From IMG/VR virus record IMGVR_UViG_3300025789_000172, positions 1 through 22,061 of that record: a stretch of 22,061 nucleotides of DNA; one strand, 5' to 3'. Positions 2,828-18,197 of this stretch are shown here, one piece after another. The translations under genes and the position numbers were made by a program. Positions within the stretch are counted from its first letter, which is position 1. The number at the start of each line of letters is the position of its first letter. Source of the stretch: a virus. Under the pieces are notes generated by a model that saw nothing but the letters and a program-made list of their open reading frames with translations, made no database searches and was not told where the DNA came from.

Positions 2828-3031
2828 ATGAATGAACATATATGGACTGCATCAGGAACAGATATTACAATTCGGTGGAAACTTCATGGTTGGATTCCAC
2901 CATCAGAATTGCAAGAATATAAAGATAAATGGAAGTATTACCAAAATTTACCTTTAAGAAATCTAGATGATGCAGCTAAAGAACAGTATGAACAAGTAAT
3001 GCGAAAAGCTAAAGTATTGAGGATTAAATAA
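2828..3031 (+). CDS. Unknown small phage protein (67 aa)
   Basis: A strong AAGGAGG site lies just before the ATG. The product begins MNEHIWTASGTDITIRWKLH and continues GWIPPSELQEYKDKWKYY, then a basic helical end (EQYEQVMRKAKVLRIK). It is rich in tryptophan and tyrosine for its size but has no metal-binding or catalytic pattern. The gene is flanked by the SSB-like gene and a lysine-rich gene, with a 1-base stop/start overlap downstream (TAATG). No family is recognised. An accessory role in recombination or DNA handling is only suggested by location. Confidence 0.65.
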   Translation: MNEHIWTASGTDITIRWKLHGWIPPSELQEYKDKWKYYQNLPLRNLDDAAKEQYEQVMRKAKVLRIK

Positions 3032-3315
3032 TGGCAACTAAATTAAAGGTACTTGTACCTGCTATAAAAGAAAAATCTGGCAAAGTGATAGTGGCTAAGT
3101 CAAAAGCTTATAGCCATGATGAACTTAAAAAGATGGTTGGTAAAGCAGCCAAAGGCGCAAAGCATGAATTTGAGCTTTCTAATGGTCGAATTGTGACTCG
3201 CAAAGTTGCAGCTAAAGTAGCTGAAAAAGCTGGCGAAGTACCTAAGTCTGTTGGAAAAAAACTTCACAGCCATGATTTGCGAAGGGCTGAAGGCATTAAA
3301 AAGAAAAAGATGTAA
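3031..3315 (+). CDS. Unknown lysine-rich basic protein (94 aa)
   Basis: About 22 of 94 residues are lysine, with four arginines and a terminal KKKKM, so the protein is strongly basic and would be expected to bind nucleic acid or an acidic partner. A segment YSHDELKKMV is partly echoed by LHSHDLRRAE near the end. The middle (AKHEFELSNGRIVTRKVAAK) looks like a short beta hairpin followed by a helix. The gene starts on the stop of the preceding gene (TAATG) and ends on the start of a tiny membrane peptide by the same device. I recognise no family. Its charge is unlike the acidic proteins at the head of the operon. Confidence 0.65.
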   Translation: MATKLKVLVPAIKEKSGKVIVAKSKAYSHDELKKMVGKAAKGAKHEFELSNGRIVTRKVAAKVAEKAGEVPKSVGKKLHSHDLRRAEGIKKKKM

Positions 3316-6386: not shown

Positions 6387-7180
6387 GATTCGTAAATCTC
6401 CAATAATGTAATGACAGCAGTTGCACCTAAACCAATATTACCTAAGTTTTTATTATAAGTAAGAGTTCCACCGCCTGCTGCCATATAAACTGTATAAGTT
6501 GTAGAAGCAGTAGTATTAGGAGTATCTAAATAAGAAAAAGAATTAGATGCTAATGTTTCGCCACCACTAATACTTCCCATAGTTGTAAAGACTGAGCCTG
6601 AACCAGCAAGGTTTGTAGTATTGCGATAAAGAGTAAATCCACTAAAGTTACCTGTAGAGCTATCAGCCCCAAAGCTAACTAAAGCTAATATTTTGCTATT
6701 TAAAGAGCTAGGAGTAATAGTAGCTGTATGGCCTGTAGTTACCAATGAGTTAGAAGTAGTGGATGCAGTTGTTGTAAATGTTTGCTGAACCATCTGAACA
6801 ATGACTCCAGGGGCAGTTAATGCTCCTGTTACCGCCAATGTTCCTGAAACTGTAGCATTACCTATAACAGGCAAAGTACCACCTACTACATTCAAAATGC
6901 CATATAAATTGTCATAGGTAGCAATTTGATTATTGCCTGAATCAGTCAATACAAATTTATATGAATTTCCATTTGTTAACCAAATCTCTTGTGGAGGCCT
7001 GCCATCTGTTCCTAAAACAATAGGATTAGCATTTGCTGTGCTTCCTGAAGAAGTTGTATAAGTTGCTAAAGGAGTGCTTGAACCAGCTTGGTATGTATAT
7101 AAAAGACCGCCAGCTAAAGGTAATCCTGTAGTTGTAAAAAATTGAAATCCATTACCAATGGGAGATAGTAAGACTGACAT
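6383..7180 (-). CDS. Tail fibre/appendage protein with phage adaptor N-terminus
   Basis: Residues 1-95 form the conserved appendage module SVLLSPIGNGFQFFTTTGLP, GGLLYTYQAGSSTPLATYT, then NGNSYKFVLTDSGNNQIATY and DNLYGI, which is common at the N-terminus of short-tail phage fibres and spikes and is thought to attach them to the tail. The rest (residues 100-265) is a Ser/Thr/Gly-rich beta domain with a repeated TVSGTLAVTGALTA motif and a likely receptor-binding or trimerising end. At 265 residues it is short for a spike with enzyme activity, and no depolymerase motif is visible. It comes after the ejection genes in the late operon, beside its probable companion at 6012. Confidence 0.65.
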   Translation of the reverse strand: MSVLLSPIGNGFQFFTTTGLPLAGGLLYTYQAGSSTPLATYTTSSGSTANANPIVLGTDGRPPQEIWLTNGNSYKFVLTDSGNNQIATYDNLYGILNVVGGTLPVIGNATVSGTLAVTGALTAPGVIVQMVQQTFTTTASTTSNSLVTTGHTATITPSSLNSKILALVSFGADSSTGNFSGFTLYRNTTNLAGSGSVFTTMGSISGGETLASNSFSYLDTPNTTASTTYTVYMAAGGGTLTYNKNLGNIGLGATAVITLLEIYES

Positions 7181-9147
7181 TATTGTTCCTTATATGTTGG
7201 ATTTCCAGATAATAAGCCTCTAAGAGCTGTAGCTGGAACATTTTTAGTTCTAGATTCAAATTTAGGTATTTCACCCAATCTCATCATATCGGCAAGTTTA
7301 GCTACAGAATTATTCTTATTAATATTAGCAATTTGTTTTGCGCCAAAAGTGCTTCCAGATAACAAAGCAGCAGATAGATTTCCGCTTAAAGCATGAGTTC
7401 CTACTGTGCTTAAAACACCCATTACAGTATCAGGAGCAAATTTAGAAATAAGGTCTAAAGTTTTTTGAGTTGCGCTTCCTTTAGCAACTTGTTTTATTGC
7501 TTCTTGTTCTTCAGGTGTAAAAAGCCTCATGCGCTTATCATTTTTTGCCAAACTGTTCATTTGGTTTTTTAATGATGTTGATAAACTTTGATTAGTAAAT
7601 TGAGCATCATTTACCATGTCATCAAAAATTTCAGCTTTTTTAAGTCTGGAATATTGAGTTCTAGCATCTTTCCATGCTTGAGCACCTTGAGGATTTCCAG
7701 CAGTTAAGTGTTGGTCTGGCGCATTTAAAACATAATCATCAAATTCATCTTTTAATTTTGAAGCCAACATTCTCACTTTAGGATTGCTAGAAACTTGCTC
7801 TCCAGCAATAATTTCTCTTAAAGCTTGTAACTCTAAATAATCTTTTGGCCTAGATGTATTTTTTAATTCATCTAATGCGCCTTTAATTCCTGAATAAGTG
7901 CTTGAATTTTCAGCATATCCAAATTGCCTTAAATCTTTACCAACTTGGTCCATATGAGCCGCGAATTTATCTGGAGCAAATTGAATGCCTGATTTTTCAG
8001 CTTGGCTATAAAGATTTTTTGCGGTAGCAGCAAGTTGTTCTTGAGAAGGCGCATTTAAAGACCTTTGCTTTAATGAAACTCCAAAAGGTGCGCCAACAGT
8101 AGCCCCAGCAAGCATAGCCAAATAGGGGTTGTCAGTTTTTTCATAAACAGCTTGTCCTGCCACAGCAGAAGGAATTGCAGCAGCAATTTGTGATTTAGGT
8201 GCAGCAGCAGCAGATTCAGCAACTCCTCTTACAAAAGGAGAAGCTGCTGTAGTAGCTAATCTAGTAACAGCAGGTAGTTCTGCAGCAGTTCCACCCATTG
8301 CACTACCAGCAGTTTCAATCATTCTTTCTGGGCCAGTTTGCGCTACAGGCAAACCAAGTCTAGTCATGTATTGTTGGATTAAATCGCTTGGCATTCCTAA
8401 TTTAGGAATATTAGTGCCTGCAAATTTGTTTATGCCACCTGTAACAGCATTAATACCAGTATTTAATACATCACCAACAGGAAGTGCAACAGAGCCTACA
8501 AGAGCACCAGCAGGGCCTGCCAAAGTTCCACCAACAGCAGCACCAGTTACAGCAGGAGTAGCACCTCTAGCAAACAATCCAGCAGCTCTAGGCAAAGTTA
8601 AATTAGGCTTTGGTTGTAGTTCTGATTCTGGAATATTGGTACTTCCAGGCAAAGATTCTGGGCTTACAAAAAGTTTATTGTTTTCAGCAAGGTTTACACC
8701 TTCTAAAACTTTATCAAGATACTTTTCTGGGTCTTTAGTTTTAAATCCACCATAAGCTTTCATGGCCTTTACATAATCGCCACCATGCTCTTTATGCAGT
8801 TGGCTAATGTAATAGTCCATTGCAGCTCTAGCTTCATCTTTATTGAATGGATTAAACTCCACTCCTTGTTTGTGAAGCATGGCTACAGTTTCAGGCATAA
8901 ATTGGCCTAAACCCATCGCACCAGAAGTAGGATTTACAGCAAGCGGATTGCCAGAACTTTCGGTTTGAATAACATTTTCCAAAAGCTTTGCTGGAGTTCC
9001 ATAGCTTTTTTTAGTATCAAATTTGTTTGATTCTGGAGGTGTATAACCAGAAACTTGAACACCAGGTTTACCTGTTCCAGTTTTACCAGAACCAGGTAAA
9101 AGCGCAGGTGCTGCTAATGAATCTGGGTCTACAAAATCTAAAGCCAT
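7180..9147 (-). CDS. Lytic transglycosylase-bearing DNA ejection protein (P22 gp16-position)
   Basis: The 655-aa protein has an SLT domain at about residues 50-150. The catalytic glutamate is E63 in ENVIQTESSGNPLAV, followed by SGAMGLGQFMPETV and the closing KAMKAYGGF. This domain cuts peptidoglycan locally during genome entry. The remainder is a long alpha-helical and alanine-rich region with a hydrophobic stretch near residues 195-235 (AVGGTLAGPAGALVGSVALP) that might insert into membrane. It is the third ejection-type gene, as in the P22 7-20-16 order, and starts 1 base into its neighbour's stop. P22 gp16 itself differs in its N-terminus, so this is a position-based parallel. Confidence 0.75.
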   Translation of the reverse strand: MALDFVDPDSLAAPALLPGSGKTGTGKPGVQVSGYTPPESNKFDTKKSYGTPAKLLENVIQTESSGNPLAVNPTSGAMGLGQFMPETVAMLHKQGVEFNPFNKDEARAAMDYYISQLHKEHGGDYVKAMKAYGGFKTKDPEKYLDKVLEGVNLAENNKLFVSPESLPGSTNIPESELQPKPNLTLPRAAGLFARGATPAVTGAAVGGTLAGPAGALVGSVALPVGDVLNTGINAVTGGINKFAGTNIPKLGMPSDLIQQYMTRLGLPVAQTGPERMIETAGSAMGGTAAELPAVTRLATTAASPFVRGVAESAAAAPKSQIAAAIPSAVAGQAVYEKTDNPYLAMLAGATVGAPFGVSLKQRSLNAPSQEQLAATAKNLYSQAEKSGIQFAPDKFAAHMDQVGKDLRQFGYAENSSTYSGIKGALDELKNTSRPKDYLELQALREIIAGEQVSSNPKVRMLASKLKDEFDDYVLNAPDQHLTAGNPQGAQAWKDARTQYSRLKKAEIFDDMVNDAQFTNQSLSTSLKNQMNSLAKNDKRMRLFTPEEQEAIKQVAKGSATQKTLDLISKFAPDTVMGVLSTVGTHALSGNLSAALLSGSTFGAKQIANINKNNSVAKLADMMRLGEIPKFESRTKNVPATALRGLLSGNPTYKEQ

Positions 9148-10607
9148 TATTTGCCCCTAGTAGCAATACCATTAATAACTCGCAAATCTTCTTGAGCTTT
9201 TTTATATCTTTCTGATTTTTCCCCACCAAGTTCTTTGGTAATTTGAGTCAATCCTTGTGGGTCAATGCCAGCATTTCTCTTGGCATCAGCCAATCTAATA
9301 GAGTCTAAATTTAAATTAGAGTTCCATTTTTGCTGATAATCATTCGCATAGATAGGGTTGTTATTGCTAATTGTTTGTGACTTGTCTACACCATGATTAA
9401 ACATCTGAACACCATAAGCCAATGCTCTGTTATATCTAGAAGTATATTGAATGGCATCTGGATTCCAAGTAGTCTTACCTGCTGTTTGAACAGCTTGTTC
9501 AATTTGCTTCTGAGTACCGCCAGTAACACCCATTTTTCCTGCGCCATAAGCAGGATTTTGTGACAACAAATTGGTTTCATTGGTCAATACATGGCCCAAA
9601 ATATCATAGTTTGCTGCAGGATTTCTAGTATTAAATTCAGGAATGCCAACATAGTTTCCTTTAAGAGCATTCCATAATTGAGCACCTTGACCAGTATCGG
9701 TAACTTGAGATAGTTGAATAGCTTGATTAGCAGCAGATTCAATCTGAACAGCTTTACCAGCTTGCTCTCTTGAAGTATTTACTAAATTATTACCAATTTC
9801 TAAATTGGTTGAAGTTTGAGGTGAAAGAGCAGAAACTGCTGGTCTTTGCTGATTTGCAGGTTTATTCATTTGGTCAGGTGTAACACCGCCTTGACCACCA
9901 CCGCCTACAGCAGAACCACCTACTTGACCGCCACCACCTACTAAATACTTTGTGCCTGGAGGCAAGCCAGAATTGTCCCCAGGTTGAGCAACAAGCTCTG
10001 TGCCTGGTGTTAAACCTAATGCAGTTGCTTGGCCAGCTTGAGTTCCTGGTGTTTGAGAGGAAAGTAATTGATTTCCTGTAGCCAAAGGAGCAGTAACACC
10101 ACCAAGATTGGTTTGAGATGCTTTTGGATAAAGTGCATCTAATTGACCTTGTGCATTTAAAGACCTAGCCATACTTTGTGCAAGCCAAGCTTTTAATTGA
10201 GATAAATTTCCACTTGCAGGAAGCCCTGCTAAAGCTTGTTGAACAGCAGCATCAGGAGTTCCTGCATTTTTTGCATGAACTTTTACTGAATCAATAATAT
10301 CTTGAGCTGTTAAATCAGGCTTATTAATGAGCCTTTGTTGGTCTTGAATAGTATTGGTTAAATGAGCCTGAAAGTTTTGTAATTGCGAAGTATTTGCTTC
10401 AGCAGTTGCCTTTCTAGCATTGGCTTGCCCTTGTTCAATTTCAGAAGGCAATAAAGCTTTCTTTTTTTGAACTTCAAGATTTTTTCCAGTAAGGTCAAGA
10501 ATATCTCCCAAAGAAGTAGCTTTAGGAGCATTTTGATTTCCATAAATACTAGGGTCAATAGTTTGACCTAATTGTGGAACTGAAACTCCGCTTGTGCTGA
10601 TTGCCAT
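9147..10607 (-). CDS. Putative DNA ejection protein (P22 gp20-position)
   Basis: This 486-aa protein is mainly alpha-helical and rich in Gln, Asn and Ala, with repeated helical segments such as EIEQGQANARKATAEANTSQ and a low-complexity Gly patch in the middle (residues near 225-245, with VGGGGQVGGSAVGGGGQGG-like composition). It has no catalytic signature. Position between a gp7-like gene and the transglycosylase gene, and its composition, fit the second of three ejected virion proteins in short-tailed phages. The family is too divergent for a firm sequence-based call. Start and ribosome site are ordinary. Confidence 0.5.
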   Translation of the reverse strand: MAISTSGVSVPQLGQTIDPSIYGNQNAPKATSLGDILDLTGKNLEVQKKKALLPSEIEQGQANARKATAEANTSQLQNFQAHLTNTIQDQQRLINKPDLTAQDIIDSVKVHAKNAGTPDAAVQQALAGLPASGNLSQLKAWLAQSMARSLNAQGQLDALYPKASQTNLGGVTAPLATGNQLLSSQTPGTQAGQATALGLTPGTELVAQPGDNSGLPPGTKYLVGGGGQVGGSAVGGGGQGGVTPDQMNKPANQQRPAVSALSPQTSTNLEIGNNLVNTSREQAGKAVQIESAANQAIQLSQVTDTGQGAQLWNALKGNYVGIPEFNTRNPAANYDILGHVLTNETNLLSQNPAYGAGKMGVTGGTQKQIEQAVQTAGKTTWNPDAIQYTSRYNRALAYGVQMFNHGVDKSQTISNNNPIYANDYQQKWNSNLNLDSIRLADAKRNAGIDPQGLTQITKELGGEKSERYKKAQEDLRVINGIATRGK

Positions 10608-10616
10608 AATTTATTC

Positions 10617-11405
10617 CTAAGCTATTTGAATTGGTGTAGATGGAGCTTGAATACCAAATCCACCACCTGTTCCACCAGAACCATAATAATTTGGGCTTGA
10701 ATTACCAATGGTGTTTAAACTTGTTCCACCGCTAGGTATAGAAATTGGTGCATTATTACCACTATTCATTGCGCTATAAGCACCCATAGTGCCTATTGTA
10801 TTGGCTGTGCTACCATAAATATTGCCTTGAGCAATTTGAGAAGCAGCAGTAGCATTGGCTGAACCTATTCCAAGATTTGCCACATTAGTTGCTGTTCCTA
10901 ATTGAGCATTAGACTGTCCAGTTGTACCTGCAAGACCTAAATTAGCATTTGCCAAATCAATAGCAGCAATATTGCCTCTTTGAGCTTGAAAATTATTAAA
11001 TGCATTTTGATAAGCATTTTGAGCATAATTTTGGGTATAGTCACTTAGTGACTTTAAAGCATTTCCACCTATAGCACCGCCAGAAGCATTGCTGGCATTT
11101 AAATTGGTCTTTTGTCCAATATCTAATCCAAAAGCATAATTAGGAGCTAAATTAGCATTTAAATCTTGATTGCTAAATTGTTCATTAAAATAAGGATTGC
11201 CAGAAGTAAGGCTTGCTAATGGAGTTGCGCCATAATTAGCATAAGGAATAAAATTTTGAGATGCTGTATTTCCAGCAGCAAGTATATTACTTTGCTGTTG
11301 TGTAGCAGCATTTGCTTGAGTTTGAGCAGCATTTTGTTGCCCTTGACTAGACAAATAACCTGCTGCAACTGAACCTACAACTACTGCTGTTGCGACTCCT
11401 GACAT
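10617..11405 (-). CDS. DNA transfer/ejection protein (P22 gp7-position)
   Basis: The 262-aa product begins with a short hydrophobic segment, AVVVGSVAAGYLSSQGQQ, then a Gln/Ala helix rich in QANAATQQQ. It carries the motif seen in many phage DNA-transfer proteins: NYAFGLDIGQKTNLNAS, GGAIGGNALKSLSDYTQ, and NAYQNAFNNFQAQRGNI. The rest is low-complexity Ala/Gly/Asn and ends in a Gly-rich tail. It follows the cupin-SET gene without a gap, at the place of P22 gene 7, whose product is packed in the virion and ejected with DNA. Assignment is by motif plus gene order. Confidence 0.6.
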   Translation of the reverse strand: MSGVATAVVVGSVAAGYLSSQGQQNAAQTQANAATQQQSNILAAGNTASQNFIPYANYGATPLASLTSGNPYFNEQFSNQDLNANLAPNYAFGLDIGQKTNLNASNASGGAIGGNALKSLSDYTQNYAQNAYQNAFNNFQAQRGNIAAIDLANANLGLAGTTGQSNAQLGTATNVANLGIGSANATAASQIAQGNIYGSTANTIGTMGAYSAMNSGNNAPISIPSGGTSLNTIGNSSPNYYGSGGTGGGFGIQAPSTPIQIA

Positions 11406-12239
11406 TTAATTTCTCCTTATTGCAAGATTTAGGGCTTGACGATAATCAATAGTAATTTCTTCCCCCAAATTACCGCCTTGGCATCCATTTATAGCCTTAT
11501 TTGCCACTAAATCAATATTGCCATTATCCCTCAAAACCATAATTCCATTAGCATTTTTTGCATGATTTGTATATCTTCCTACAGGGGTTCTTTTGCCATC
11601 TATGCGAGCTGGAGCAATTACCTCTCCTTGAGCAATATTTCCTGTAGCAAATACACCTTTTCCATCAATTCTTGAATTAGCAATCATCATTTTGTAATTG
11701 CCAAAAGGCATGGGAATTTGGTCATCCATGTTTTCTGTCTGTTTTCTAACAGTTTCATGGTCAAAACCATATTCAGCAATAGCTAAATAATAATCAGCTA
11801 CATCAGAAGAATGGTCTAAAGTTAATAATAAATTTTGAGCTTTTTGATTTTCTTGCCAAGTTATGCTTTTTTCAAGAAACATAGATTCAAGCTTTTCTAC
11901 ATCGGTTTCCAAAGTCGCATAAACATTTTGCCAAACCATTTTTTCATGAATATATCCAATTTTTCGACCTGGCTTTGAAACAAAAACTTGAGGAGCAATT
12001 AATTCATTTTTTGAGCCATCCTCATTGACCATTGTTACTCTACCAGAAATCATTATGTTTAAATGTTCGGTTTTTTGATAATGACCTATGGACAATGTAC
12101 CAGCAGGAATGGTGACTTCTCGGATGTAGATATTAGGGCCAAAGCGATGCACTACAGGACAATCTACTTGTTCATGCTTTAAAAATTCAGCTTCTAATTG
12201 CTGAACTTTTTCTTCAGTTATAACTTGTAAACTAGACAT
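11406..12239 (-). CDS. Cupin-SET domain fusion, putative phage protein-lysine methyltransferase
   Basis: From the ATG at 12237-12239 the protein has 277 residues. Residues 30-125 are a cupin-type beta barrel: IPAGTLSIGHYQKTEHLNIM (H53, H59 as possible metal ligands), then FVSKPGRKIGYIHEKMVW with H98. After a helical linker, residues 183-270 carry SET-domain marks: NSRIDGKGVFATGNI, then GRYTNHAKNANG with the NH core, and GEEITIDYR with the catalytic-type tyrosine Y266. SET enzymes transfer methyl groups from S-adenosylmethionine to lysine side chains. A longer frame from 12332 adds a leucine-rich N-terminus overlapping the preceding gene and lacks a good ribosome site. The gene lies between tail hub and ejection genes. 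Which protein it modifies, if any, is unknown. Confidence 0.75.
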   Translation of the reverse strand: MSSLQVITEEKVQQLEAEFLKHEQVDCPVVHRFGPNIYIREVTIPAGTLSIGHYQKTEHLNIMISGRVTMVNEDGSKNELIAPQVFVSKPGRKIGYIHEKMVWQNVYATLETDVEKLESMFLEKSITWQENQKAQNLLLTLDHSSDVADYYLAIAEYGFDHETVRKQTENMDDQIPMPFGNYKMMIANSRIDGKGVFATGNIAQGEVIAPARIDGKRTPVGRYTNHAKNANGIMVLRDNGNIDLVANKAINGCQGGNLGEEITIDYRQALNLAIRRN

Positions 12240-12468
12240 TGTAATAAGGAACTTTATAAGGCTTACCAGCAACAGTAATATTGATAAATCCAGCAGGGTT
12301 AGTAGGCAATACTGCTGCGCCTTTGGAAGCATTAGGCGAGCTACTAAAATTTAGTAAATTCAAAAAATACTGTTGCCAAGACCTAGTTGGCATCTTTGTA
12401 GACTCATCTAGCAAAGGGGTCTGTGGATAAGGATTTAATTGAGAATTGCCATAAATCTGATTTGCCAT
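12232..12468 (-). CDS. Small virion-operon protein (78 aa), position of P22 gene 26/14
   Basis: The protein starts MANQIYGNSQLNPYPQTPLL and ends with the conserved-looking LPTNPAGFINITVAGKPYKV then PYYNV. Proteins with this P-TNP-GFI and YK-PYYN ending recur next to gp10-like genes in phages, but I know of no tested function. It is far too short for a P22-type tail needle (gp26, 233 aa). Its start overlaps the gp10-like stop by 1 base and its stop overlaps the cupin-SET start by 8 bases, implying co-translation. A tail plug or closure role is inference from location. Confidence 0.65.
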   Translation of the reverse strand: MANQIYGNSQLNPYPQTPLLDESTKMPTRSWQQYFLNLLNFSSSPNASKGAAVLPTNPAGFINITVAGKPYKVPYYNV

Positions 12469-14576
12469 TAGTTTTCCCCTTCTGTAGCTTTAAGGTTAGC
12501 TGACACAATTACAGCCTTAATAGGGTCAGAAACCGATACCTCAAAGATTCTATCCCTAGACCAGCCTAATCTGCGCCAAATAGCTCGATTTTGATATTTG
12601 CCAATTTTGCCAATACTGACCCAATGTTCATTAGACCAAGTAGAACCGCCATCATTTGACCATCTGAGCATTGCTTGTGGGTTTTTTCCTTGCCCTGTAG
12701 ATAAGCCTACACCAGGCTGAAACTGAATTTGCATTTCATCAAAATATTGCCTTTGCAAGTCAGTTACTAAATGAGGGCATCTTCGCAATCTGCGAATTTC
12801 ACCGCCATTGTCTGTGTAGTTATTAGGGTCTAACTCATAAATATTGCCATTTTGCCAATCCCCTACAAGAACCATATCTTGAAAGTTTGCTTGGCAATTT
12901 GACCGATGGCGATGGTAAACATTATTGGAGTCTACCCATAACCACTTATGCCACATTTGAGTGGATAAGTCATAGCACCAAGTCAAATCAAGGGTTGGGA
13001 AAGAAAGAACATAAACTTCATGGCCTTCTTGTTGATAAGTATAGGCAACAGCATCTTTAATATACTTATTAACTAAAGTATTTTCTACAGCATGGGTTGA
13101 TATTCTTTGTGGAAAATATCCATTCATTTGAACAATTTCAGCTTGACCACGATTATTCTTAGACAAATAAGCAAAAGAATTACCTAGTTTTGCTACTGAA
13201 AACTGAGCTGCCACACCATGCTGACTTGAGCTTCCTGGAATGCGCTGAAAAGGAAATGGGAAAGTTCCAACATCCGACCATACTTCTGTAGTGGTATCGC
13301 CTAATAAAAAGACTTGTCCATTGCTTGCAATGATTGACACTAAATTATCTGGGCCAGTAAATTTGCTTGCAAAAGACAAACCATAAGTTACTGGAGAAAG
13401 GATATTAGAAGCAGCCCATTGTTGAGTATTAGGCTTGTTGTAAATAAAATAGTTATCAATAATATCTACTACATTAGCACCTTGAAATGCGCCATCTGTG
13501 CTTGGAATAACTGCAAAATTTACAGCATACATAGTTTCTGAGCTTACAGATTGATTAGGGCTTACTGTATAGTTTCCTGTTCCACCTGAACCTGTACCAA
13601 AAGTAAGATTAAGGGTTAACCCTGAACCTGAACCAGTAGTGCTTGTAGAAGCTGCATTGGATGGTGTAGAAGTATAAGAGCCAGGATAGGTTAAAGATAG
13701 CGAAGAAACAGCACCTGAGCCTCCTATGCCTGTTACTGTAAAGTAAGCTGCGCTTTGTCCATAAACACCGCCTAAAACATATACAACATCATTTATGGCA
13801 TATCCTGTGCCTGCTGTAGCAATGCTTCCGCTTAATACTGTTCCTGTGCCTAATGCACTTACAAAAGTATTTGGGGTTACTCCATTGCCTACTATTGCTT
13901 GCCCTGGATAGATTTGTCCTGTAAACATATAGTTCACAGTCATTTGGCTTCCTGAAATAGAAGCATTAAATGAACCACCTGAAGCATTAGAATTAAATGC
14001 TCTGCTAGTTAAATTTAAAGAGGTGTTAATTTGATAAGTTCCGACACCGCCTGTGCCAGAGCTAGTAATAATTACCCCTAAACCAGTTCCTAAGCCATAC
14101 AAAGACTGACCTTGAATAATTCTGCCTTCTCTAATGGAGGTAACAGTTAAAGTTGTTCCTGAAATAGAGCCAGTAAAAGAACAAGCATCAGGTTGGCTTA
14201 TGCGCCATGTATAGCGATTATTGCCATCAACAATATATGCGCTAATGCCATTATCTGTAATGCTGACAGGGCCAGTAGAGGTATTTAGAATACCGACTAC
14301 ATAAGGTGTAAATTCAGAATCTAAAACATAGACATAAATGCCACAAACCGCCATTAAATAATTGCCACCTGATAAAGCTTGCATTCCACGAACAGAATCT
14401 TGATTAGCAAATTGAACTAAGGAAGTAAGCCCTGGAGTTGGATAAAGCGCAACTACACCTCTTTCACCCTGAGCTTTTAAAGGGTCAATTTCAGGTCTAA
14501 AGTTGATACATTCCTGAGCATCTTGATAGATACTAGGAGCTTCATAAGATGGGCCTACAAATCCAAAGTCAGCCAT
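12468..14576 (-). CDS. P22 gp10-like packaged DNA stabilisation/tail hub protein with domain insertion
   Basis: The 702-aa protein matches the gp10-like family of short-tailed phages at both ends. The N-terminus reads [18 protein letters not shown] then ECINFRPEIDPLKAQGERG and ALYPTPGL. The C-terminal half has GANVVDIIDNYFIYNKPN, TTTEVWSDVG, FPFQRIPGSS and SNDGGSTWSNEHW. Gp10 forms the tail hub that closes the head after packaging; P22 gp10 has 472 residues. The excess is explained by residues 133-354, a Ser/Thr/Gly beta region inserted between TWRISQPD and VIPSTDGAFQG. That insert holds an A-type repeat (133-195), a second A-type repeat (203-246 and 331-354), and inside the latter a different B-type domain (250-327). 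Function of the insert is probably surface display on the tail. Confidence 0.85.
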   Translation of the reverse strand: MADFGFVGPSYEAPSIYQDAQECINFRPEIDPLKAQGERGVVALYPTPGLTSLVQFANQDSVRGMQALSGGNYLMAVCGIYVYVLDSEFTPYVVGILNTSTGPVSITDNGISAYIVDGNNRYTWRISQPDACSFTGSISGTTLTVTSIREGRIIQGQSLYGLGTGLGVIITSSGTGGVGTYQINTSLNLTSRAFNSNASGGSFNASISGSQMTVNYMFTGQIYPGQAIVGNGVTPNTFVSALGTGTVLSGSIATAGTGYAINDVVYVLGGVYGQSAAYFTVTGIGGSGAVSSLSLTYPGSYTSTPSNAASTSTTGSGSGLTLNLTFGTGSGGTGNYTVSPNQSVSSETMYAVNFAVIPSTDGAFQGANVVDIIDNYFIYNKPNTQQWAASNILSPVTYGLSFASKFTGPDNLVSIIASNGQVFLLGDTTTEVWSDVGTFPFPFQRIPGSSSQHGVAAQFSVAKLGNSFAYLSKNNRGQAEIVQMNGYFPQRISTHAVENTLVNKYIKDAVAYTYQQEGHEVYVLSFPTLDLTWCYDLSTQMWHKWLWVDSNNVYHRHRSNCQANFQDMVLVGDWQNGNIYELDPNNYTDNGGEIRRLRRCPHLVTDLQRQYFDEMQIQFQPGVGLSTGQGKNPQAMLRWSNDGGSTWSNEHWVSIGKIGKYQNRAIWRRLGWSRDRIFEVSVSDPIKAVIVSANLKATEGEN
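13515..14180 (-). repeat. Inserted beta-repeat region in gp10-like protein, nested A/B arrangement
   Basis: This segment encodes residues 133-354 of the hub protein. A-type unit 1 reads FTGSISGTTLTVTS, then GQSLYGLGTGLG and GTYQINTSLNLTS. A-type unit 2 opens FNASISGSQMTVN then GQAIVGNGV, breaks after ALGTGTV, and resumes as GNYTVSPNQSVSSETMYA. The interrupting B-type unit contains GTGYAINDVVYVLGG and GGSGAVSSLSLTYPGSY. The A-type pattern also occurs in the gp4-like protein at 15104-15319. Confidence 0.65.
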
Positions 14577-15573: not shown

Positions 15574-15891
15574 CTAAGCATTAGGGGTAAATACTTGAGG
15601 CAGCCAAGGCAGAACCGCATCAGTTTTAATATTTAAAGCATCTAACTGTTTATCTAGTTGAGCAGTTATGTGACATTTATCGTCACGAACAGCTTCCGAT
15701 TCAATCCATTTAGCAATAATATCTTCTGTTACTTCATTAAAAGGTATTTTATTACTAGGAGAGTCAAAATACCAATATCCTTCGGTTTCTACTAAATTAT
15801 TTTCATCAGTAGCAGTTATATGGTACTTAGCACTAAGAATGACTTCATCCTTAGCAGTAATTTCTGTAATTTTCCAAGTATATGTTGTCAT
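15574..15891 (-). CDS. Small tail-region protein, DUF7936-like (105 aa)
   Basis: The 105-aa protein opens [20 protein letters not shown], a beta-rich start shared with small proteins found beside phage tail genes (I recall a DUF7936 family, not verified). It then has a strand pattern around [20 protein letters not shown] and a helical second half ([20 protein letters not shown]) with a proline-rich end [11 protein letters not shown]. It has no membrane span. Its start overlaps the glycine-rich gene's stop by 4 bases, so it is in the appendage sub-cluster. A virion or assembly role is likely but not shown. Confidence 0.55.
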
Positions 15892-16820
15892 GCTGTGTAT
15901 GTTCCTGAGCTTGTAAATGTATGGATAGTGTTGCCACCAGCAGAGGTGATTGTTCCTCCTGTGCCTCGTTGACTGCCTGAATAACTAATAATAACTATTC
16001 CTGAACCGCCATTACCGCCTTGCGATTGAGTTCCTTGGTCAGGGCCTCCACCACCACCACCGCCTGTGTTAGCTGTTCCATTACCGCCATTACCAGTATT
16101 GTTAATAACACCATTACCACCGCCACCATTACCGCCAGTTCCTTGTGTGCCATTTCTTGATGAACCACCACCGCCACCGCCATAATAAGTAGCTGAACCT
16201 GAAATAGAATTAGATATTCCTACACCGCCAGCACCACCGCCTGAACCTGAACCAGCAGCACCAGCACCTCCAGCACCACCGCCACCGCCACCACCATAAG
16301 CAGGGCTACTATTTGCACCTGATGCGCCATTATTTCCTTGTCCTGCTGTGCCAGTTCCACCAGCACCGCCTGAACCGCCTACACCACCGCCACCGCCTGA
16401 ACCACCATTAGCTCCAGTAGTAACACCTGAATCTCCGTTAGCACCAAAACCACCACCTACGGCTGTTAAGCTAAATGCAGTTGAATTTGCACCATTAGTT
16501 TGTGCTGTATTTGAACCACCAGCACCAACAACTATAGAATATGCAGTTCCAGCATTAAGAGTTGTAGTTCCTGAAATTACACCTCCAGCACCACCGCCAC
16601 CTCCATCTCCTGTTCCACCTGTTCCACCACCAGCAGTTAATAAATAGCTAACTGTGTAAGGGCCACCAGCAACAATTTGCCAAGATGAACCATTCCAAAT
16701 TTCATAAGCTACAAGAGTAGTATTCCAACCTTGCTGACCTACAGTTGGGCTTGATGGTCTACCAGCAGTAGTCCATTGGGCTGGAGTTATGCCATTAGTT
16801 CCATCAATAATTACAGTCAT
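15888..16820 (-). CDS. Glycine-rich appendage/adhesin protein 1
   Basis: I chose the ATG at 16818-16820, overlapping the upstream stop as ATGA; the TTG at 16832 would add 4 residues. The N-terminal adaptor-like part (TAGRPSSPTVGQQGWNTT then AYEIWNGSSWQ) is followed by YTVSYLLTAGGG and over 200 residues of glycine-rich sequence (GGGGGG runs with Ala, Asn and Ser). The end is [14 protein letters not shown]. Such glycine-rich stretches in phage adhesins, for example those at the tips of T4-like fibres, can pack as polyglycine II helices that display receptor-binding loops. This function is inferred from composition. A paralogue lies at 17166-18197. Confidence 0.6.
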   Translation of the reverse strand: MTVIIDGTNGITPAQWTTAGRPSSPTVGQQGWNTTLVAYEIWNGSSWQIVAGGPYTVSYLLTAGGGTGGTGDGGGGGAGGVISGTTTLNAGTAYSIVVGAGGSNTAQTNGANSTAFSLTAVGGGFGANGDSGVTTGANGGSGGGGGVGGSGGAGGTGTAGQGNNGASGANSSPAYGGGGGGGAGGAGAAGSGSGGGAGGVGISNSISGSATYYGGGGGGSSRNGTQGTGGNGGGGNGVINNTGNGGNGTANTGGGGGGGPDQGTQSQGGNGGSGIVIISYSGSQRGTGGTITSAGGNTIHTFTSSGTYTA

Positions 16821-17155
16821 AGTGCTACCCAAGATAAAGTTGCTTCATCCCATATAGCTGGTGTTTCAGGTCTTGGTGTTGGGGCTTCCCATGTCCAAGT
16901 ATCTTGATTTAATGTCCAGCTAGGAAAAGGTTGTGGGGCATAGAAAACATCATTAGTAGCATCGTAAATATGCCCAATACCAGCATAGTTGCCTCTTAAT
17001 GGAGTGCCACCTTGAGTATGTTTGTTTTCAAGAGTGTTATAGCTAGTTTGAATCCATGCGCCTGGCGATGAATCTACGAATGTGTCAAAAAACTCAGGTT
17101 TAGCAACAATGACTTGTGTTACTTTTCCATCAACTACTTTAGCAAAATGTCCCAT
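16817..17155 (-). CDS. Small phage tail-associated protein (112 aa), unknown function
   Basis: The sequence begins MGHFAKVVDGKVTQVIVAKP and contains WIQTSYNT, QGGTPLRGNYAGIGHIYD and PFPSWTLNQDTWTWEAP. This pattern is common in marine and freshwater phage structural clusters, where it is annotated only as hypothetical. It is soluble, with about seven tryptophans, and has a GAGGA ribosome site. It lies between two glycine-rich adhesin-like genes. It probably is a virion component or a chaperone of those proteins; neither is proven. Confidence 0.6.
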   Translation of the reverse strand: MGHFAKVVDGKVTQVIVAKPEFFDTFVDSSPGAWIQTSYNTLENKHTQGGTPLRGNYAGIGHIYDATNDVFYAPQPFPSWTLNQDTWTWEAPTPRPETPAIWDEATLSWVAL

Positions 17156-17165
17156 GTTTTCCTCG

Positions 17166-18197
17166 TTAAGCTGTGTAACTGCCTGATGCAGTAAATTTAA
17201 TAATAGTGTTAGAGCCTGAAGTAGTTACTGTTGGGCTTCCTGTTGTAGTTCCTGAATAACTTGATGTAGGAACAGAAAGAATTACAACACCTGAACCACC
17301 ATTTGCACCATTATTTGTTGCATAAAAAGCGCCACCACCGCCACCGCCTGTATTGGCTGTGCCAGCAGTACCAGGGTTTCCTCCTCCACCACCACCTCCG
17401 TTACCACCTGAACCATTTGAAGGTGTATCGCCACCACCACCACCTCCACCGCAATAATAAACAGCAGAACCTGTAATTGAAGAAGAAATCCCTACACCGC
17501 CATTACCAGCAGACCCTGATGTTCCATTTGCCCCAACAGCACCAGCACCGCCACCACCGCCACCAGCGACATTTGGAACTCCTGCATCATAACCAATGCC
17601 ACCATTATTACCTTGACCAGCAGTTCCTGAAGATGCGCTACTTCCTTGATGTGCGCCACCGCCTCCTGAACCTCCTGATGCGCCATTAACATTTCCTGCG
17701 CCACCGCCACCACCGCCACCAAGCGATGTATTTGAATTAAAAACGGAATTTGAACCAGTTGCACCACGACTGTTTGATGAAGCTGAACCTCCTGCACCTA
17801 CAGTAATGGTATATACAGTTCCTGGAGTTAAATTAGATGTTCCTGTTAATAAACCACCTGCGCCACCACCTCCACAAGCAATAGATGATGAACTTCCTCC
17901 ACCACCACCACCAGCAGCAATTAAATAAGAAACGGCATATTGACCAGAAACATAAGTAGTCCAACCACTTCCGTTATACATTTCTGCGCCATTAATTGTA
18001 GTATTCCATCGCATCGCACCAACAACAGGGCTTGATGGTCTTTGTGCAGTTGTTCCTGTAGGCAAAACTAATGCGCCAACTGTGCTAGAAGCATCAATAA
18101 CTCCACCAGTTGCAGTAATAGCTAAATTACCTGAAGTATCAGGTGTAACACTAAAAGCTGTGCCTGTAGTTGTTCCGATGTTTATAGTTGTAGACAT
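17166..18197 (-). CDS. Glycine-rich appendage/adhesin protein 2
   Basis: The 343-aa protein has an N-terminal module of the sort used by phage fibres (GALVLPTGTTAQRPSSPVV then GAMRWNTTINGAEMYNGS). After AVSYLIAAGGGGGG comes a glycine-rich region (about residues 94-305) and an end NTIIKFTASGSYTA. Elements shared with the paralogue at 15888 include GGGGAGG-GT-L-GT-Y-I-VGAGG, AGQGNNG, a GVGI-SI-GSA-YY block, TANTGGGGGG and the C-terminal FT-SG-YTA. It is larger by about 30 residues, mainly at the N-terminus. Presumed role: display of host-binding surface. It overlaps the next gene by 1 base. Confidence 0.6.
   Translation of the reverse strand: MSTTINIGTTTGTAFSVTPDTSGNLAITATGGVIDASSTVGALVLPTGTTAQRPSSPVVGAMRWNTTINGAEMYNGSGWTTYVSGQYAVSYLIAAGGGGGGSSSSIACGGGGAGGLLTGTSNLTPGTVYTITVGAGGSASSNSRGATGSNSVFNSNTSLGGGGGGGAGNVNGASGGSGGGGAHQGSSASSGTAGQGNNGGIGYDAGVPNVAGGGGGGAGAVGANGTSGSAGNGGVGISSSITGSAVYYCGGGGGGGDTPSNGSGGNGGGGGGGNPGTAGTANTGGGGGGAFYATNNGANGGSGVVILSVPTSSYSGTTTGSPTVTTSGSNTIIKFTASGSYTA

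Follow-up and report, generated by a model that had tools for sequence, protein, structure and literature searches.

SET enzymes have been studied mainly as chromatin writers, and the domain is best known from the chromatin of complex cells. A small viral SET has been described, vSET of chlorella virus PBCV-1, a histone H3K27 methyltransferase that is among the best structural matches of the phage protein reported here, but it shares 22% identity with that protein, stands alone without a cupin, and belongs to a virus of a eukaryotic alga. KMT2A/MLL1, EZH2, and SETD8, to which both SET blocks of the phage protein align in order and with a Foldseek probability of 1.00, differ in that they possess a full SET-I and post-SET, act on histone substrates, and are eukaryotic. 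Bacterial SET proteins share the Pfam family (PF00856) and the motifs of the phage SET, whereas their stretch from GxG to NH is longer by ~30 residues and they form a separate branch (100/98). The cupins of PHROG 12032, PHROG 24280, and CDD PHA00672 are homologous to the N-terminal half of the phage protein and are also encoded between hub and ejection genes; they lack SET, and their names, “short tail fiber protein” and “tail fiber adhesin,” are annotation only. The whole protein falls into PHROG 34170 (match over residues 7-271, E 2e-94; 36/36 diverse members match), which is listed as “unknown function” with neither cupin nor SET named, so the expectation of the initial annotation that relatives already exist in databases as unnamed phage proteins proved right. 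A0A6J5PTS6, a metagenomic protein of 263 aa automatically annotated as “SET domain containing protein [uncultured Caudovirales phage],” is possibly the same fusion because it matches the fusion model structurally over 118 columns, and record MW202744 automatically labels its copy of the family after vSET. Our search of open-access papers found none on phage SET or cupin-SET proteins, and at least 511 IMG/VR stretches encode a relative.

The window, that is, the whole stretch of DNA that was analysed, is a virus record of 22,061 bases. The features referred to below are as follows.

7180 to 9147, minus strand: 655-aa ejection-type protein with a lytic transglycosylase (SLT) domain (PF01464, E 2e-10)
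9147 to 10607, minus strand: 486-aa probable internal virion protein, assigned by position only, no family match
10617 to 11405, minus strand: DNA ejection protein (phrog_598, E 2.2e-12)
11406 to 12239, minus strand: cupin-SET fusion gene, 277 aa, PHROG 34170
11415 to 11708, minus strand: compact SET domain without SET-I, residues 178-275
11442 to 11465, minus strand: SET motif IV, GEEITIDY, with the catalytic-position tyrosine Y266, residues 259-266
11547 to 11591, minus strand: RTxxGRYxNHxxxxN, comprising R217/T218/G221 and SET motif III, residues 217-231
11649 to 11675, minus strand: SET motif I, SxIxGxGxF, with the SAM-binding GxG, residues 189-197
11730 to 11864, minus strand: helical linker, residues 126-170 (model helices 126-156 and 161-169)
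11865 to 12164, minus strand: cupin (RmlC-like) domain, residues about 26-125, homologous to the stand-alone phage cupins of PHROG 12032/24280
12232 to 12468, minus strand: small 78-aa protein directly upstream of the fusion, no PHROG match
12468 to 14576, minus strand: head closure Hc3, P22 gp10-like (phrog_578, E 2.4e-104)

The fusion gene starts with the ATG at 12239 and stops at 11408-11406, and the plus strand across 11406-12239 is rich in stops, the long open frame existing on the minus strand only; the initial annotation gave these coordinates correctly but left the strand unstated. The 5′ end of the gene overlaps the upstream 78-aa gene by 8 bp, and the gene directly abuts, with no gap, the ATG at 11405 of the DNA ejection gene. 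Its placement between tail-hub and ejection genes, as had been proposed, agrees with the presence of Hc3 upstream and of the ejection and SLT proteins downstream, and the quoted motifs SRIDGKGVFA, GRYTNHAKNANG, and GEEITIDYR are all found in the fusion protein. The gene just upstream of the fusion is unrelated from phage to phage and represents a highly variable position among relatives; in L024 it looked like a sulfotransferase gene, an idea dropped after no Pfam match was obtained. Elsewhere in the window, two glycine-rich tail-region proteins (15888-16832 and 17166-18197, minus strand), both phrog_2295, are encoded close together as if duplicated.

The window protein scores 21.3 bits against Pfam SET (PF00856; E 3.6e-4), just below the cut-off of 22.4, so the SET call is marginal from this single sequence. 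At the family level, SET identity is beyond doubt because the homologues match: 34 of 36 diverse members hit Pfam SET (E<0.01; best 3.3e-8), and locus L128 (31.5 bits) and Pseudoalteromonas phage PH1 (34.3 bits) lie above the cut-off. When a profile of the SET half was compared with all PDB sequences, 46 matches were obtained at E up to 0.1, of which 45 were labelled as SET lysine methyltransferases (KMT2A–D, vSET, EZH1/2, KMT5A, and others) and the last is listed merely as PFL0690c. The best match was MLL1 (E 5e-7), with SET-N and SET-C aligned in the correct order, while vSET was matched at E 5e-5, and the single PH1 protein matched KMT2D at 7e-6 without a profile. The full-length AlphaFold model (pLDDT 89.3, pTM 0.83) returned both cupins and SETs in Foldseek with a probability of 1.00, and the SET-only model (pLDDT 89.9) returned SET proteins throughout the 50 matches listed. 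These confident models (pLDDT 89–90) resemble vSET, EZH2, MLL1, and SETD8, with a TM of 0.64/0.65 between vSET and the SET-only model. The pseudoknot that the C-terminal segment of a SET forms is indicated only indirectly, through these Foldseek matches. That the C-terminal half would take the SET fold is, judging from the models, practically certain, and the earlier description of it as a SET of the lysine-methyltransferase type is borne out by the Pfam, PDB profile, and Foldseek results together with its intact SAM and catalytic motifs.

Conservation was counted in an alignment of 126 distinct sequences. The glycines of GxG are kept in 125/126 (G193) and 126/126 (G195), motif III in 126/126 (N225), 125/126 (H226), and 124/126 (N231), and E261, T263, and Y266 of motif IV each in 125 of the 125 rows with letters there. 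The initial annotation had regarded loss of the NH and Y residues in homologues as a sign of a dead or unrelated fold, and these counts reveal no such loss. In addition, R217 (126/126), T218 (125/126), and G221 (126/126) are family-specific near-invariants. The conserved SET positions persist even in members that share as little as about 30% identity with the window protein. L117, an Anaerolineae MAG contig, encodes the sole member with NQ for NH in motif III (H226Q), and in L122 a K replaces the first G of GxG (G193K); both variants are natural controls for activity.

What sets the phage SETs apart is their shortness. The GxG-to-NH spacing is 29 aa in 118/125 phage proteins and 57–63 aa in nine of the 10 bacterial SETs parsed, the tenth spacing, 77, having been counted from a false upstream GxG. 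What the phage SETs lack is SET-I, an insert that helps to line the peptide cleft of characterised SETs. Because SET-I is missing, the domain is a true SET by its motifs and fold and yet not a canonical SET methyltransferase, and ordinary lysine methylation should not be assumed. The missing wall of the cleft probably comes from the invariant R217-T218-x-x-G221 loop, from the linker helices or the cupin, from another protomer, or from the substrate; the linker itself is a poorly conserved stretch of the family alignment.

The cupin half is homologous to PHROG 12032 (E 3e-38) and PHROG 24280 (E 2e-29), and the model, Foldseek, and these PHROGs agree with the earlier claim of a cupin domain. The metal site that had been proposed in it, H53/H59/H98, did not stand up, since it is not conserved: H53 is present in 110/126 sequences and H59 in 120/126, while H98 is found in just 76/126 and is replaced by L, I, or V in 45/126. 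Such variable His ligands do not support a metal-dependent cupin enzyme as a family trait, although individual members could bind metal. The cupin is usually SET-free: among the 56 GenBank phage records matched, the full fusion, defined by a query coverage of 80% or more, is present in eight, and the remaining records match the cupin only. It is a conserved phage protein in P22-like, T7-like, and BPP-1-like phages and is encoded in the structural gene cluster wherever annotated. In P22-like phages (BA3, VvAW1, and Vibrio and Shewanella phages), cupin-only homologues are flanked by the hub/nozzle gene and the ejection genes; in T7-like phages, their place is between the genes for tail tubular B and internal virion protein; and in BPP-1, bbp23 is the homologue and is bordered by terminase plus a GNAT acetyltransferase gene on one side and by portal on the other. 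Phage zth2-2 carries a cupin-SET fusion at the BPP-1-type position with a GNAT gene nearby, so the fusion occurs in two distinct structural neighbourhoods. The cupin-SET fusion recognised in the initial annotation is supported; the missing SET-I, the coming and going of SET as a module, and the second genomic position had no place in it. GNAT genes are situated beside or near the cupin in three phages, at L242:7480-7944 (BPP-1 bbp24), L031:10096-10581 (zth2-2), and L182:2484-2900. Taken with the SET fusions, these neighbours hint at protein-modifying enzymes gathering at the cupin. A sequence search returned no solved phage particle containing a cupin homologue, the open-access literature offered neither virion proteomics nor a particle structure for the cupin or its close relatives, and the passages found on BPP-1 mass spectrometry name only Bbp16 and Bbp17.

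SET is a swappable C-terminal module on the cupin, and loci with nearly the same cupin differ by a clean SET block of ~380 bp. The cupin genes of L128, with SET, and L130, without it, share 89% nucleotide identity over 472 nt; after the cupin, L128 continues with 382 nt of SET and L130 with an 87-nt tail, beyond which the two match again, at 77% identity, in the next gene. L236–L238 and L240, which lack SET, fall inside the window protein's own clade, and the other reading frames of these four loci showed no remnant of SET. In the cupin tree (80 rows), the SET label takes six changes, at least four of them forced by starred branches. In the SET tree, the cupin-fused SETs and the stand-alone SET of Pelagibacter phage Kolga split from the bacterial SETs (100/98), and the SETs of both SET-bearing cupin clades group together although the cupins that carry them are distant from one another, a pattern that requires either transfer of the module or repeated loss. 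The trees rest on 105–134 columns (105 for the SET tree), which makes their finer points unsure, and a clade of phage SETs excluding the Kolga SET gave an AU p of 0.25, leaving a single origin unsettled. The Kolga protein itself, gp27 (L140:4965-5273), has 102 aa, is annotated as hypothetical, and scores 40.1 bits against Pfam SET. Of the 399 Pseudomonadota genomes sampled, 69 encode SET proteins, and the phage-type SET profile found nothing in this sample at E 1e-4 beyond the centre genome, which holds one phage cupin-SET-type gene. The C-terminal tails “CQE/CLG/CHG” recur in many cupin and cupin-SET proteins (e.g., L120, L121, L127, and L134). They were considered as a zinc-binding post-SET remnant, but cupin-only members end likewise, and for that reason the “CQE/CLG” tails are judged to reflect the Shine-Dalgarno of the overlapping next gene.

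Starting from the fold, the motif conservation, the modularity, and the gene context described above, we tentatively propose that the fusion would combine a particle-associated cupin with a working lysine methyltransferase, irrespective of the target, a reading that we place at a probability of roughly 0.45. The N-terminal cupin would be a conserved, probably nonenzymatic member of podophage structural clusters and most likely a particle-associated adaptor, to which the C-terminal SET would be attached as an accessory enzymatic module. This module would bind S-adenosylmethionine via GxG and NH and might use Y266 for methylating the lysine side chain of a protein. Binding of SAM is highly probable, the presence of the fusion protein in the virion is likely, and methylation of protein lysine is somewhat favoured. 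A constant scaffold, an optional enzyme, and strict catalytic conservation fit an accessory enzyme on a particle protein. The fusion might then be delivered with the virion and act on a protein of the host, such as one involved in the nucleoid, in transcription, or in defence. SET comes and goes at the cupin C terminus with constant neighbours, which fits a cargo activity against particular hosts and not a part that builds the particle. The position of the BPP-1 cupin, which is not beside ejection genes, counts against this reading. In its complete form, that hundreds of podophages may carry and eject a miniature SET lysine methyltransferase without SET-I, modifying a host protein at the start of infection, the idea is rather doubtful.

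The alternative that survives best is that the enzyme works in the infected cell during assembly and methylates itself or a structural or ejection protein of the phage, for instance, to tune stability or unfolding and ejection. The gene stands among late structural genes and the cupin would place SET beside other virion proteins, but a target among those proteins is hard to find. There is no lysine column common to the SET-bearing phages in the four largest neighbour clusters, nor among the head-closure, ejection, and SLT proteins, which weakens a shared substrate among those neighbours, and the DNA ejection protein of the window is very poor in lysines. The gene directly upstream, unrelated across phages as described above, does not offer a common substrate either. 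One group of upstream proteins, cluster 4, has two lysine columns occupied in 78% and 89% of nine SET-bearing members and in 0/3 SET-lacking members; however, with twelve small proteins it is tiny and confounded by kinship, and the window's 78-aa protein is outside it. Methylation during assembly is possible in our view, if on the whole unlikely. The absence of a common neighbour lysine inclines us toward a host target, weakly, because these negatives are silent on other phage proteins, and a host protein is only slightly favoured over a phage protein as the target. A 94-aa lysine-rich protein with 22 K and no PHROG match is encoded at 3031-3315 (plus strand) of the window. It was rejected as a substrate for want of a link to the fusion; among the loci compared, only the close relative L007 shares it, and most of these loci stop short of this region.

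The proposal of an active enzyme also has to face the possibility that SET is catalytically dead and SAM-independent, a small beta-rich knob that merely lengthens the cupin. The missing SET-I, the location of the module in a structural operon, and its dispensability would all suit such a role, but conservation of the positions for SAM binding and catalysis is near-perfect in the 126 sequences, with one H226Q and one G193K as the exceptions, as is unexpected for a scaffold, and we consider a dead domain improbable. SAM-dependent activity on a small molecule or on an amine other than protein lysine, in a cleft that the loss of SET-I has opened and whose rim is altered as the invariant R217, T218, and G221 indicate, is very improbable, given that the nearest matches in structure and sequence are protein-lysine methyltransferases and that no SET is known to have chemistry of such a kind.

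The pair L128 and L130, which differ mainly by the SET block, makes the questions about the enzyme directly testable, and Rhodoferax phage P26218 and Pseudoalteromonas phage PH1, isolates whose hosts are named, likewise aid such tests. If the proposed lysine methyltransferase is real, a widespread phage SET without SET-I, strongly constrained at every catalytic position, would show how little of the domain its function requires, and lysine methylation would become a candidate weapon of phages or a candidate step in their assembly.
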